A stretch of DNA of 37,390 nt, taken from Erysipelotrichaceae bacterium. GTDB lineage: Bacteria; Bacillota_I; Bacilli_A; Erysipelotrichales; Erysipelotrichaceae. The stretch spans positions 1-37,390 of the forward strand of contig JAUNEN010000025.1 of assembly GCA_030525525.1 (NCBI GenBank), read 5' to 3'. A program made the translations under genes and the position numbers. Shown piece by piece: positions 4,372 to 19,242 of this stretch (position 1 is the first letter of the stretch; every line of letters starts with the position of its first letter). Under the pieces are notes generated by a model. That model had not been told where the DNA came from. It saw nothing but the letters and a program-made list of their open reading frames with translations, and searched no databases.

Positions 4372-5648
4372 TTCATTCTCACTTTCGCCGCATTTGCATG
4401 TGCCTGCAGCTGCTCTTCTTCAGCCATGGAAACGATATGATCTCCATACGCCTTCAATGCTTCTTCGGTGTAGTAAAGGAATGATGATTTTTTGATAAAT
4501 GCATCAACGCCAAGCGCACTTGAGAATCTCGCAGTGCCGCTGGTCGGCAGGACGTGGTTGGTGCCGCCGAAGTAGTCGCCGATCGATTCGCATGTATAGT
4601 AGCCAAGGAATACCGAACCGGCATTGCGGACACGGTTGAGATAAGGCATCGGATCAGAGACCATCAATTCAAGATGCTCCGGCGCGATGGCATTGGAGAA
4701 ATCAATGCACTCCTCAATTGTATTGCAGATAATCGATGTTCCGTAATTCCTGAGTGAAGCTTCGACAATCGCCCTTTTCGGCAGAACGTCTGTCTGGATG
4801 CGCAGCTGCACATTGACCTTTTCGCATAATTCTTCACTTGTGGTCAACAGAATTGCAGAAGCCATCGGATCGTGCTCTGCCTGGGAAAGAAGATCGGCTG
4901 CCACAAATGCCGGATCTGCTTTCTCATCCGCAATGACGAGAATTTCACTGGGACCGGCAATCATATCGATATCCACTTTGCCGTAAACAAGCTTTTTCGC
5001 TGCAGCGACATAGATATTGCCCGGGCCGACGATCTTGTCAACCGCAGGGATTGATTCGGTTCCGTATGCAAGTGCCGCGATTGCCTGCGCCCCGCCGATC
5101 TTATAAATCTCAGTCACACCGGCAAGACGCGCCGCAAAGGCAATATTCGGATTGATTCCGCCTTCTTTGGAAGGAGGTGTCACCATGACGATTCTCTTCA
5201 CACCTGCCACATGAGCCGGAATTGCATTCATGAGGACTGAGCTGGGATACTGGGCACGGCCGCCCGGCACATAAATACCGGCCGACTCCAGAGGGATCAC
5301 TCTCTGCCCCAGGAAAATTCCGTATTCCTTCTGCTGGATGTAGGAATTCTGAACCTGGGCACGATGGAAGAATTCAATATTCTGCTTTGCTTTCTTCATC
5401 GATTCCATGAAGAAGGGATCGCACTTTTTGATTGCTTCATCAATCTCTTCTTCACTGACTCTGAAATCATCAATCTGAATGCCGTCAAACTTTGCCGTAT
5501 ATTCCTTACAGGCTTTATCTCCTCTTTTGCGGACATCTTCGATAATGCGGGAAGCAGCCAGCAGAATCTCTTCGGAAATTTCTGCCGAACGTGAATCAAG
5601 ATAAGCACGCAGCTGTGCGGTTTCAGTTCTGTCAATTTTCTTCAGCAT
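4368..5648 (-). CDS. hisD: Histidinol dehydrogenase HisD
   Basis: Zinc enzyme catalysing the last two oxidations, L-histidinol to L-histidine with two NAD+. The key residues are visible: zinc ligands Q256 and H259 in QAEHDP, the catalytic pair E324-H325 in IAPEHLEL, and D358 in SIGDYFGG. 426 residues is standard. The start at 5648 overlaps the end of hisG by 17 bases, the only overlap in the operon longer than four bases; an AAAGGA RBS sits about nine bases upstream inside hisG. Confidence 0.96.
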   Translation of the reverse strand: MLKKIDRTETAQLRAYLDSRSAEISEEILLAASRIIEDVRKRGDKACKEYTAKFDGIQIDDFRVSEEEIDEAIKKCDPFFMESMKKAKQNIEFFHRAQVQNSYIQQKEYGIFLGQRVIPLESAGIYVPGGRAQYPSSVLMNAIPAHVAGVKRIVMVTPPSKEGGINPNIAFAARLAGVTEIYKIGGAQAIAALAYGTESIPAVDKIVGPGNIYVAAAKKLVYGKVDIDMIAGPSEILVIADEKADPAFVAADLLSQAEHDPMASAILLTTSEELCEKVNVQLRIQTDVLPKRAIVEASLRNYGTSIICNTIEECIDFSNAIAPEHLELMVSDPMPYLNRVRNAGSVFLGYYTCESIGDYFGGTNHVLPTSGTARFSSALGVDAFIKKSSFLYYTEEALKAYGDHIVSMAEEEQLQAHANAAKVRMK

Positions 5649-6273
5649 GAGGAATCATCCTTTCCAGATCATTGATCAATGTCATGATCTCATCTCTTTT
5701 CATTTTAAAGCTTGCTTTATTCACGATCACACGGGCGCTGAGTTCTGCCGCCGTGTCATAGACAACAAGTCCGTTTTCCTTGAGGGTCGCTCCGGTTTCC
5801 ATGATATCGACAATCCCGTCGGTTAATCCGAGCACCGGTGCCAGTTCCACCGAGCCGTCGATCTTGATCACTTCGATATCCTTTCCTTTGGAGCGGAAAT
5901 AATCCTTGGCAACATTGGGATATTTGGAACCGATCCGGATATGACCGCTCTTTTCTAGCGGATTGGCGCCTGCCAGTCCGGCCACGATGAAGCGGCATTT
6001 GCCGATCTCAAGATCAAGCATTTCGTAATAATCCTTGCCGCCCTCCATCAATGTGTCCTTGCCGACAACTCCGATATCGGCAACCCCGTGTTCGACATAT
6101 GTGATGCAGTCATTTGCTTTGACAAGGAAATAGCGGATGTCTTTCTTCGTATCCGGAAAGACGAGAGCCCTTCCCTTGTTTCTTAATTTTTCAATGCCGT
6201 ATCCGCTTTTTTCAAGCATGGCAACCGTCTGGCTTTCAAGACGGCCTTTGGTGAGTGCAACCGAGAGACTCAT
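5632..6273 (-). CDS. hisG: ATP phosphoribosyltransferase catalytic subunit HisG, short form
   Basis: First committed step of the pathway: condenses ATP and PRPP to phosphoribosyl-ATP. At 213 residues it is the short HisG that lacks the C-terminal histidine-binding regulatory domain and needs HisZ as partner; hisZ is the gene immediately upstream. Visible family features are SVALTKGRLE at the N-terminus, ADIGVVGKDTL at about 66-76, and the PRPP-binding stretch near VDIMETGATLKENGL. Feedback control would act through HisZ. Confidence 0.96.
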   Translation of the reverse strand: MSLSVALTKGRLESQTVAMLEKSGYGIEKLRNKGRALVFPDTKKDIRYFLVKANDCITYVEHGVADIGVVGKDTLMEGGKDYYEMLDLEIGKCRFIVAGLAGANPLEKSGHIRIGSKYPNVAKDYFRSKGKDIEVIKIDGSVELAPVLGLTDGIVDIMETGATLKENGLVVYDTAAELSARVIVNKASFKMKRDEIMTLINDLERMIPHAEEN

Positions 6274-7373
6274 CTGACCACCTCCATCTCACCCGCTTCA
6301 CGGGGAATCATTTCAACAGGTTCCGTTTTTCTTAATTCACGTGCCTTTTTCATCGCTGATGCAATCTGATCCTTCGGATAATAAAGCTTTGTGATTTCTG
6401 ACTTTTCAGAAGACATGATATCAAGCAGATAATCCAGTTTGACCCCGAAACCGATCGCCGGCAGATCCCTGCCGAGTTTGGAAAGCAGCGTATCATATCT
6501 GCCGCCGGAGAGCACGCTTGTACCGATTCCTTCGGCATAGCCTTCAAAGATAATGCCTGTATAGTATTCAAGATGAGGCACCTTGCCAAGATCAAATGTC
6601 ACATGATCTCCATAGCCAAGTTCTGAAAGGATATCCCTGAGTGTAATCATATGGCTGATTTCTTCTCTGAGCTCTTCATCAAAGCAGAGCTTCATCGCAT
6701 TTTCAAGCGCCTCTTTCCCGCCTAACAGCGGAAGTGCATTGAAGAAGCGGCCAGCCTCACTGCTTAAGGACAGTGTTTTGAGATACTCCTTCAGTGCCGG
6801 GATTTCCTTGCGGTCAATCAGATCTGCCAGCACAGCCGCCTTCTCAGTATCAATGCCACTTTTTTCGCAGGCCAGTCTGAATAATTCCGAACTGCCGATT
6901 TCAAGAGTATACTTTTCAGCGCCCAGGGCAGCCATGACATCCAGCGCGCAGGAGAGTACTTCCACATCGCTGCTATCATCCAGTCCGATCAGTTCCACGC
7001 CGCAATCGGTCACTTCATTGCGTTTGCCGGCAAAGCTCTGTCTCACCTTGTAGACATTGGAACAGTAGCAGAATCTCAAAGGCAGATTGTCAGAGGCATA
7101 TTTGCCTGCTGTTACTCTTGCGATCGGAAGTGTCATATCCGTACGGAGTGCGAGAAGCTGTCCGCTTTCATCGACGAATTTGTATAATGTTTCTTCCTTC
7201 AGAGCCGTAAATGTATTCTGATAAGTTGAATAGAATTCAATCAGAGGTGTTTCGATCTGCCGGTATCCGTATGATTCATAGACCGCCATGATTTTACTCT
7301 TCAGCCTGTCTTTGATCATGCATTCATCGCTCAGTATATCCCGCATTCCCGAAGGGATCTGAATCTGTGTCAT
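6270..7373 (-). CDS. hisZ: ATP phosphoribosyltransferase regulatory subunit HisZ
   Basis: Histidyl-tRNA synthetase paralogue without aminoacylation activity; forms the hetero-octamer with short HisG and carries the feedback histidine site. The 367-residue protein has class II synthetase-like motif 2 (LRTDMTLPIAR, about 96-106, then RFCYCSNVYKVR) and motif 3-like GGRYDTLL near 290. It lacks the C-terminal anticodon-binding domain of HisRS, which together with its position before hisG makes it HisZ rather than hisS. First gene of the operon, preceded by a strong AAGGAGG RBS and the T-box leader. Confidence 0.93.
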   Translation of the reverse strand: MTQIQIPSGMRDILSDECMIKDRLKSKIMAVYESYGYRQIETPLIEFYSTYQNTFTALKEETLYKFVDESGQLLALRTDMTLPIARVTAGKYASDNLPLRFCYCSNVYKVRQSFAGKRNEVTDCGVELIGLDDSSDVEVLSCALDVMAALGAEKYTLEIGSSELFRLACEKSGIDTEKAAVLADLIDRKEIPALKEYLKTLSLSSEAGRFFNALPLLGGKEALENAMKLCFDEELREEISHMITLRDILSELGYGDHVTFDLGKVPHLEYYTGIIFEGYAEGIGTSVLSGGRYDTLLSKLGRDLPAIGFGVKLDYLLDIMSSEKSEITKLYYPKDQIASAMKKARELRKTEPVEMIPREAGEMEVVR

Positions 7374-7391
7374 ATCATTGCCTCCTTAAAC

Positions 7392-7420
7392 AAAAGGACG
7401 CCCTCATAAAGGGACGTCCT
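7392..7420 (-). terminator. T-box regulated transcription terminator before hisZ
   Basis: On the minus strand AGGACG(T)CCC pairs with GGGCGTCCT around a seven-base loop and is followed by four T. The upstream arm begins directly after the conserved T-box sequence, so formation of the antiterminator is mutually exclusive with it, as in classical T-box leaders. Confidence 0.85.
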
Positions 7421-7652
7421 GAACGTGGTTCCACCCGATTTCACCGTCTCCTCGCGAAGAACAGCCTCATGAAGTACTGACATACTTCTGTGCTTTAACG
7501 TGCACTCACGTCACTCCCTACTGAAAAACTGTTCGGAAGTGCGGCTCGGGGATGTGGTTCATCAGGCATGTACTGCTTCCTTTTCACCGCCCGGAAGCTC
7601 TCTTTTCAGCATATGGATCTGACTACTCTTTCCCGTCTCTGCCTTTTTGATT
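7392..7652 (-). promoter_or_regulatory. T-box leader (tRNA-His sensing) of the his operon
   Basis: About 260 bases of minus-strand leader with the diagnostic T-box sequence GGGTGGAACCACG at 7436-7424. An AGTA near the start, an AGAGA element, and GAAC at 7560-7557 followed by CAC at 7556-7554 fit Stem I with CAC as specifier codon, meaning it would read tRNA-His. Uncharged tRNA-His would stabilise the antiterminator and open the his operon. The T-box call is near certain; the specifier assignment rests on spacing and motif context and was not folded. Confidence 0.9.
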
Positions 7653-7658
7653 GATACA

Positions 7659-7686
7659 ATCATACCATCGGTTTTTCGCAAGTCAA
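7659..7686 (-). promoter_or_regulatory. Sigma-A-type promoter of the his operon
   Basis: TTGACT at 7686-7681, a 16-base spacer and TATGAT at 7664-7659 on the minus strand. Predicted transcription start is near 7652, just ahead of the T-box Stem I. It is 41 bases downstream of the previous gene's stop codon. Confidence 0.75.
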
Positions 7687-7727
7687 CCGCGAAATGTGAA
7701 TTCTTTCAATGTGTGAAAACATTTTCA

Positions 7728-18228: not shown

Positions 18229-18274
18229 ACTGTTTTCCTCCTACTGATAATCAGATAATGAAGTTTTTTTGACC

Positions 18275-18301
18275 AAAAAAGATGGACATGAAATATCCAT
18301 C
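18275..18301 (-). terminator. Terminator between the small transcription unit and the ankyrin gene
   Basis: Minus strand: GATGGATAT / ATGTCCATC, nine pairs including one G-U around a three-base loop, followed by six T. It begins at the last base of the stop codon of the 34-codon ORF and lies about 46 bases before the ankyrin start, so it either ends a small gene or acts as an attenuator. Confidence 0.8.
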
Positions 18302-18405
18302 TAAAAAACATTTTCGGATTTGTTATCAACCCTGCCTAAAAGACCGCGATCCTCCGTGTTCATTTCTTTTTGAGATACAATTAAAAATCCATTCAGAACA
18401 AGCAT
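18301..18405 (-). CDS. Possible 34-residue small protein or structured leader RNA
   Basis: In the 315-base gap between the YgjP-like gene and the ankyrin gene, an ATG at 18405 opens 34 codons (starting MLVLNGFLIVSQKE and ending SENVF) and stops at the terminator. GGAG lies about ten bases upstream of the ATG. A promoter-like element at 18481-18454 and the terminator at 18301-18275 frame a transcript of about 170 bases. The peptide is not recognised; an inner ATG at codon 15 is an alternative start. The same RNA could fold instead: AAAGAC / GTCTTT and TGTTC / GAACA nest, and GGATTT in the loop can pair with AAATCC downstream. Coding status is uncertain. Confidence 0.3.
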   Translation of the reverse strand: MLVLNGFLIVSQKEMNTEDRGLLGRVDNKSENVF

Positions 18406-18453
18406 ATTATGAAGTCTCCGTCTTTATGGAAGATTGAAATCTTACCTAAGTAC

Positions 18454-18481
18454 ATTTTATCGAAAACGCTTAAATCTTCAA
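18454..18481 (-). promoter_or_regulatory. Promoter of the small transcription unit before the ankyrin gene
   Basis: Minus strand TTGAAG at 18481-18476, a 16-base spacer and TAAAAT at 18459-18454. The predicted transcript starts near 18447 and would run about 170 bases to the terminator at 18275. No other explanation for this stretch was found. Confidence 0.5.
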
Positions 18482-18543
18482 TAGAATTTCTTTGAACATC
18501 CTGTGATATTTATGAAAACTCTGTCAAAATTATGAAACATCTT

Positions 18544-19242
18544 TCATGATTTCAGCATTTTCTCGGCTTCTTTGTAGTTCGGCATATAGGATGCCACATA
18601 TGCCCAGAATCTTTTTGAATGATTTGCCTCCAGCATATGAACATATTCATGAAGCAGCACATAATCAAGACAAACCGGACTGAAATGAATCAGTCTGACA
18701 GAAATGGAAATGTGTGCTTTGGCCGGCGTGCAGCTGCCCCATCTGCTTGTCATGTACTTCAGAGTAAGGCGCGGCAGCGGTTTTCCGTATGTCTGACAGA
18801 TCATAGAATCAAGGTCTCCCCTTCTTTCTTTGATCATATAGAGAAGCTGCTTTGATGCCTCACGGTAAAAAAGAGCCATCCTGTTTTCATCAGTATCTTC
18901 CCTCAGATGATAGACAATCCCGTTCTCATCAACACTCATGTAATCACGTGCCGACTTCACACACGAAACCGGAAGCCTTCTGCCCAGCCACATCGCATCT
19001 TCATTTCCTGAGCCGTATGAGCAGCTTTCTTCTTTCTTTTCGGTACTGGCTTCCGCTTTGAAAATCCATTTTTCACGGCTTGCAATGAATTCACGGATCT
19101 GCGCATCGCTGACGGATCTTGCGCAGCTGATTTTCAGCGATCCGTTTTCGCCCATTCTCATCCAGAGATTTTTGATTCGCTTGTATTCAATAAACACCTG
19201 CCTTCTTTTTCCGGCAGCAGTAACCTCAATAACTTTTCCCAT
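18544..19242 (-). CDS. YgjP-like (SprT/M48-type) zinc metallopeptidase
   Basis: 232 residues. The C-terminal half has the YgjP/DUF45 zinc site HEYVHMLEANHSKRFW (HExxH plus the downstream His) near 197-212, preceded by the family motif KYMTSRWGSC. No signal peptide or membrane helix, so cytoplasmic. Substrate unknown. No Shine-Dalgarno sequence precedes the ATG; a TATAAT lies only seven bases upstream, which suggests a leaderless mRNA. The first in-frame alternative Met is at about residue 28 and would remove conserved N-terminal sequence. Confidence 0.85.
   Translation of the reverse strand: MGKVIEVTAAGKRRQVFIEYKRIKNLWMRMGENGSLKISCARSVSDAQIREFIASREKWIFKAEASTEKKEESCSYGSGNEDAMWLGRRLPVSCVKSARDYMSVDENGIVYHLREDTDENRMALFYREASKQLLYMIKERRGDLDSMICQTYGKPLPRLTLKYMTSRWGSCTPAKAHISISVRLIHFSPVCLDYVLLHEYVHMLEANHSKRFWAYVASYMPNYKEAEKMLKS

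Follow-up and report, generated by a model that had tools for sequence, protein, structure and literature searches.

A uORF-terminator leader conserved before the ank-EF-G operon of Erysipelotrichaceae: a probable ribosome-mediated attenuator

In the attenuation of the E. coli pyrBI operon, the position of a coupled ribosome relative to a terminator decides the outcome while polymerase pauses set the pace. Readthrough occurs when low UTP pauses the polymerase, the genes controlled serve pyrimidine synthesis, and the sequence of the leader peptide is unimportant. We describe here a leader that precedes an ankyrin-repeat gene (ank) and a paralog of elongation factor G (EF-G). It can be likened to pyrBI in its peptide, the sequence of which also appears unimportant, and in the proposed roles of ribosome position and pausing, but its upstream open reading frame (uORF) stops at the terminator stem whereas the pyrBI frame runs through the terminator.

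Several other systems share part of this layout. The msrDL leader has a short uORF beside a Rho-independent terminator and controls a translation factor; a ribosome held at its stop codon obstructs the terminator and a NusG-type pause has been proposed, features to which we liken the ank-EF-G leader. The msrDL uORF, however, has six codons and a peptide that arrests release with erythromycin (PMC10314930), while the ank leader uORFs have 17–47 codons and an unconstrained peptide. In tlrB (yxjB) of B. subtilis a NusG pause buys time for initiation before a Shine-Dalgarno (SD)-sequestering hairpin forms (PMC6851288; PMC12288461), and a ribosome close to the stop codon hampers the terminator (PMC6851288); we propose both for the ank leader. 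The tlrB leader encodes a 9-aa arrest peptide (RYR) where the ank leader has no arrest motif, and its hairpin sequesters chiefly the SD of tlrB itself (PMC6851288), whereas in the ank leader it would be the SD of the uORF. HflXr/rli80 of Listeria also places a uORF and a terminator before the gene of a ribosome-acting GTPase, but it has antiterminator and anti-antiterminator folds and an RLR arrest motif (PMC6310831), neither of which was found in the ank leaders. The vmlR leader of B. subtilis has a uORF and an intrinsic terminator in common with it, as well as a NusG TTNTTT pause to which the pause-like motif of the ank leaders may correspond, and differs by a three-codon uORF, an antiterminator fold and lincomycin-type inducers (PMC9226507). 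The best reading of the ank leader is an attenuator that would resemble pyrBI, msrDL and tlrB and do without an arrest peptide. Precedent for such occlusion comes mostly from E. coli, where a terminator a few nucleotides past a stop codon was almost fully repressed and translation was required for this (PMC4824070).

Layout and conservation of the leader

Within the window (the whole 37,390-nt stretch analysed), an earlier note made from the sequence alone had described a small unit at 18275-18481 with a promoter, an RBS, a 34-codon ORF and a terminator, and had offered a small protein, a small RNA or an attenuating leader as its nature. All four elements are present, and the unit is encoded on the minus strand, in the 5' to 3' order promoter, SD, uORF, terminator, spacer, ank, EF-G paralog (Table 1). 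As the note had stated, the ORF stop abuts the terminator: the TAG at 18303-18301 overlaps the first bases of the stem. Its six terminal T also stand, while the nine pairs it gave to the stem become ten on computation, three of them G-C. The gene of a YgjP-type metallopeptidase lies upstream of the unit, at 18544-19242. The interval is not, as had been claimed, the only gap over 300 bases, since 7374-7727 is another; that gap holds a T-box leader (7407-7648, minus strand) before an ORF at 6270-7373 and his genes.

Table 1. Features of the ank-EF-G leader and operon in the window
Feature	Position	Strand	Remark
Palindrome TGAAAGATGTTTCA, candidate operator	18533..18546	-	5' of promoter; position kept in genus
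Sigma-70-type promoter, TTGAAG-16 nt-TAAAAT	18481-18476 and 18459-18454	-	Both hexamers kept across 61 aligned genus loci
AAAGAC, 5' strand of helix able to sequester the uORF SD region	18420..18425	-	
uORF Shine-Dalgarno, GGAG	18416..18419	-	Also seen in genus alignment
uORF, 34 codons, ATG 18405 to TAG 18303-18301	18301..18405	-	Relatives keep start, frame and stop; not peptide
GTCTTT, 3' strand of uORF-SD-sequestering helix	18339..18344	-	Within uORF
TCTTTTAGGCAGGG, predicted NusG-type pause motif	18330..18343	-	41 nt 5' of terminator stem
Intrinsic terminator, stem 18302-18280, six T 18280-18275	18275..18302	-	10 pairs, 3 G-C
ank Shine-Dalgarno, AGGAGG	18237..18242	-	In spacer after terminator
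ank, ankyrin-repeat protein, 222 aa	17560..18228	-	First gene of operon
EF-G paralog (EFG II type), 690 aa	15464..17536	-	Start 23 nt past ank

Taken in the window alone, the elements of the leader exceed chance only modestly: a scan of 4 kb gives 11 promoter-like sites against 5.7 by chance (sd 2.2) and 11 terminator-like sites against 3.5 (sd 1.9), and the fold of the window's own leader is unremarkable (z = -1.40). Together with the relatives they are far above it. The gene ank was present in 64 of 70 same-genus genomes; relatives carry the names Erysipelotrichaceae, Solobacterium sp. and Lactimicrobium massiliense. We read 63 upstream regions (G068 is truncated and was left out) and used the 61 leaders with at least 180 nt upstream, dropping L043 and L061 for their short upstream sequence. 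The genus alignment keeps the promoter hexamers, the GGAG, the ATG, the ORF and the terminator, and the terminator pairs vary on both arms: six rows, for example, have G-C in place of A-T, and three have A-T in place of G-C. In 33 of the 63 genus loci the distance between ygjP and ank is 281-336 nt; elsewhere other sequence takes the place of ygjP and the leader is still found beside ank.

An order-wide sample of 196 genomes held ank in 135, spanning 48 of 71 genera. Taking 80 of the 101 listed ank-bearing genomes outside the genus gave a set of 141 species' leaders, in which we called an intrinsic terminator when it lay at most 150 nt from ank, and a uORF when an SD-preceded ATG ORF of 17-47 codons ended at -25 to +12 nt of the stem start. 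A terminator shortly 5' of ank was found in 133 of the 141 leaders (8 had none), and a uORF ending at its stem in 114 of these 133, compared with 6.7% of 2660 shuffles of the upstream sequences. The remaining 19 had no uORF by the criteria applied; the calls depend on the thresholds, and some misses, such as L132, have a terminator just under threshold. The last base of the stop codon coincides with stem start +1 in 62 of the 114 uORFs, the stops themselves being TAA (55), TGA (31) and TAG (28). Since the loci are related by descent, locus counts overstate their independence and genus-level counts are safer: outside its own genus, the arrangement occurs in at least one member of 36 of the 44 sampled genera and in none of the sampled members of 8. 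Judged by this comparison, the leader of the ank-EF-G operon is conserved across Erysipelotrichaceae, which supports the attenuating-leader option of the earlier note.

As a genomic control, we took 400 kb of the same-genus genome G061, in which 43 of 279 crude gene starts have an upstream terminator. Four of these 43 show the uORF-terminator combination, one of which resembles the end of a longer gene. At one locus of this genome (L230, gene at 4621-5827), a 402-codon ORF that begins MYNVRKIQDDIYWLGASDRRLEKFENTYSV follows a 16-codon uORF whose end falls at a terminator stem (offset +1), possibly another leader of the same type.

A palindrome lies further upstream. In the window it is the candidate operator of Table 1, which begins at the ygjP stop codon; most of 59 genus loci carry a TGAAANNNNTTTCA palindrome some 300-320 nt upstream of ank. 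The consensus of the CcpA cre site is TGWAANCGNTNWCA, with a central CG. At least 9 of the 11 fixed cre-type positions are present in 56 of the 59 loci (null 12%), and the central CG is often missing, including in the window.

Reading frame, RNA folding and the pause-like motif

We compared substitutions in 17 close pairs. In the uORF the three codon positions change at much the same rate (0.123/0.151/0.146), and 37 codon changes are synonymous against 127 that are nonsynonymous, whereas ank in the same pairs shows 0.025/0.013/0.256 with 898 synonymous and 123 nonsynonymous changes. By this measure we found no purifying selection on the uORF peptide. The 34-aa peptide of the window has no Pfam or NCBIfam match, and the leader peptides of different genera are unrelated. 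The frame, on the other hand, is kept: across the stretches that the uORFs occupy, frame 0 is open in all 114 (by selection of the loci), while the +1 frame is stop-free in 8 (4/55 in the genus, 4/59 in the others) and the +2 frame in 15 (7 of 55 and 8 of 59). Equal substitution across codon positions combined with a kept frame argues against a functional small protein and suggests that translation, rather than its product, is used.

The uORFs are unexpectedly rich in valine. Valine makes up 14.1% of their residues, against 6.3% in a proteome sample of G061 (2.2-fold), and GTN per codon amounts to 13.9% in frame 0 but 4.8% in +1 and 2.9% in +2, where base content predicts 6.8%. Of 37 genera, 33 have more GTN than expected (p=1.4e-6). 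GTT accounts for 53% of the valine codons in genus uORFs (124/235), for 35% in G061 and for 26% in the long ORFs of the window. Save at the last codons, the valines are evenly spread and not clustered. This frame-locked excess may mark regulatory codons or tuned elongation; the ank-EF-G operon that follows is not biosynthetic.

Turning to RNA structure, a consensus fold of the 61 genus leaders returned no structure besides the terminator, and the Rfam search that the earlier note had suggested gave no family at gathering score for the leader stretch, with sub-threshold matches only at relaxed thresholds. A structured small RNA thus gains no support beyond the terminator. The potential GGATTT/AAATCC pseudoknot of the note is broken in the nearest relatives, L024 and L025, which read GGACTT. 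Of the features that its proposed alignment of relatives bore on, the ORF frame and the terminator proved to be kept, while the peptide and the pseudoknot did not. Over 133 loci, neither the 5' arm of the terminator (mean z +0.11, sem 0.08) nor its 3' arm (mean z -0.04) pairs in excess with the upstream 120 nt; hence nothing here points to an antiterminator of the classical kind. Whole leaders are nevertheless more stably folded than their shuffled versions (mean z -1.30, sem 0.12).

One pairing does recur. The uORF SD window pairs with the 3' part of the uORF, with a mean z of -0.88 over 114 loci and, by genus, of -1.25 (37 genera, 29 of them negative, Wilcoxon p=2e-5), whereas a control window further 5' gave -0.17 (p=0.45, by genus). 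It is weak or absent in many loci, z lying below -1 in only about 40%; strong examples are L196, L181, L148, L188 and L197. The AAAGAC/GTCTTT stem, which the earlier note had listed among nested stems, turns out to be one case of this family-wide tendency. It is on comparison of the loci that the arrangement, its conservation, the free peptide, the missing antiterminator signal and the SD pairing rest.

Finally, we looked at the T-rich sequence within the uORF. TNTTTT starts 37-46 nt 5' of the stem in 46 of 61 genus loci (null 3.7%), and a second T-rich copy lies 74-90 nt 5' of the stem in 23 of 61 (null 7%). Outside the genus it is mainly near genera that hold the motif at that place; anywhere in the leader, TNTTTT occurs in 18 of the 59 other loci. 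The NusG of this genome carries VVRNTPGV, and presumably residues N81 and T82 lie within its RNTPGV. These two are the pro-pausing residues of NusG, whose pause register runs from -11 to -6 as TTNTTT with an elemental Y at -1 and G at +1, the motif being necessary and not sufficient (PMC12288461). Among the 46 motif-bearing loci, the base ten positions past the first T of the motif (+1) is G in 40 and the base before it (-1) is a pyrimidine in all 46; -11 is T in only 19, and the window's own copy has G rather than T at -11 and A rather than G at +1. The motif about 41 nt before the stem is thus predicted to sit in a NusG-dependent pause register.

The ankyrin and EF-G genes

The EF-G gene follows ank in 80 of 80 family loci tested. 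In the window, its product is 36% identical to the canonical EF-G (DTPGH), which is encoded by a separate gene of the genome (G000:C127), and its best NCBIfam model is NF009381, elongation factor G. It reads GHSGAGKST, with a Gly in G1, and RGLSV instead of RGITI in G2, and the switch II His is replaced by Tyr (DTPGY instead of DTPGH). A search of 140 non-canonical EF-G loci, a set that includes some genomes twice, gave DTPGY in 134 and DTPGF in 2, with the motif not found in 4. EFG II proteins, a subfamily that has the loss of RGITI as one of its defining traits, are widespread EF-G duplicates with no settled role (PMC3150367). The paralog of the window fits this subfamily, as judged by motifs rather than by a tree. 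In Bacteroides, an alternative EF-G2 is required to colonise the gut and is induced when carbon becomes limiting (PMC10294740).

Four further EFG II loci, from genomes that belong to the same class but to other families (L279-L282, 43-44% identity), were also inspected by eye. Upstream of these we saw no ankyrin gene and no uORF-terminator leader, implying that the ank and leader arrangement is not general to EFG II. From this comparison of loci, the pairing of ankyrin and EF-G appears to be a family-specific partnership. Our literature searches found no paper joining Erysipelotrichaceae, ankyrin and elongation factor G, and none joining elongation factor G, ankyrin, operon and Firmicutes. PMC8632094 gave no match for Erysipelo-, elongation factor, fusA or EF-G, and the sole mention of Erysipelotrichaceae in PMC11109978 concerns another motif.

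Predicted mechanism, alternatives and meaning

We favor, with a probability of about 0.72, a leader that acts as a ribosome-mediated transcription attenuator of ank-EF-G and whose peptide would have no function of its own. A promoter-like score of at least 9 is found upstream of 97 of the 114 uORFs, while the spacer between stem and ank (median 41 nt) scores at least 10 of 12 in only 1 of 133 loci. As the spacer is almost devoid of promoter-like sequence, readthrough is the likely source of the operon mRNA, and a ribosome close behind the polymerase is likely the switch. The distance from the stop codon to the end of the termination zone is 29.6 +/- 5.3 nt. A ribosome whose A site holds the stop codon would have a footprint that covers the 5' arm of the terminator.

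From these features we infer pausing, occlusion and the direction of control. RNA polymerase would pause within the uORF, at the NusG-type motif in this genus, letting a ribosome load before the uORF SD folds onto the 3' part of the uORF; the pause would hold the polymerase before the SD-sequestering strand emerges, as for tlrB (PMC6851288). By the time the polymerase arrives at the T-run, some 30 nt downstream, a ribosome that keeps pace would sit at the stop codon and cover the terminator 5' arm, so that no hairpin forms and ank-EF-G is transcribed. With no ribosome, or a lagging one, both the SD hairpin and the terminator would form and transcription would end. Candidate inputs on the position of the ribosome are the rate of translation, valyl-tRNA, drugs, and release or recycling. 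Fusidic acid increases termination in vitro, as cited in PMC4824070. Several points speak against the model: in B. subtilis the polymerase often runs ahead of the ribosome (PMC9226507), part of the sampled loci and genera lack the uORF or the terminator, the pause-like motif is confined to the own genus and near ones, and the SD pairing is weak or absent in many loci.

The same data can be read in other ways. In a classical attenuator, a ribosome stalled within the uORF (for example at valine codons or by a drug) would switch the RNA to an antiterminator fold. The valine-rich uORFs, the phasing of GTN to the reading frame and the better-than-shuffled folding of whole leaders all fit this, but the valines are dispersed, neither terminator arm shows excess upstream pairing, and the R/K-X-R/K arrest motif is not in excess in the last 10 residues (8 of 114 uORFs against 9.6 in shuffled ones); we regard it as unlikely. 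A uORF that merely tunes a constant level of readthrough at a fixed partial terminator and senses nothing would agree with the differences in uORF length and SD helix among genera. Yet the uORF, the stop at the stem, the SD pairing and the pause-like motif of the genus are kept across many genera, beyond what a fixed setting needs, which makes this explanation quite improbable.

The two other options of the earlier note fare worse. A gene for a small protein, standing alone between a promoter and a terminator of its own, would agree with the kept SD, ATG, frame and stop and with a peptide motif, F.V...LFGGV, that recurs in the genus. The core of the genus uORFs, TCTTTTNGGCGGGG, is however constrained at the nucleotide level, third positions included, peptides are unrelated between genera, and the even substitution of codon positions (37:127 synonymous to nonsynonymous, against 898:123 in ank) contradicts selection on a protein; we hold this reading highly improbable. 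Nor is there much room for a terminated small RNA acting in trans. Attenuation would anyway give an RNA of about 170 nt, but there is no conserved fold except the terminator and no Rfam match, and a reading frame is kept. A genus-leader pattern run against the 70 whole genus genomes matched 20 times, once in each of 20 genomes and always at the ank leader (0 matches for the pattern reversed as a control), while in the sampled loci the linkage to ank is by design, as they were sampled beside it.

Returning to the ribosome-mediated attenuator, a tentative and rather doubtful extension is a feedback loop, in which the leader would gauge the passage or exit of ribosomes on a peptide-neutral, valine-rich mini-ORF, and EFG II and the ankyrin protein would in turn alter that movement or remove the ribosome from the stop codon. 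If this were true, an EF-G paralog would be controlled by the very process it serves, family-wide and with no drug-arrest peptide. A conserved, probably translation-sensing leader before the operon of an EFG II suggests that this gut family makes the protein in response to the state of translation, and it would give an experimental handle on the role of EFG II. Moreover, ribosome-polymerase coupling in Firmicutes is disputed, and some 114 natural variants in which the peptide is free while frame, stop and terminator are fixed may serve as a comparative model for it.
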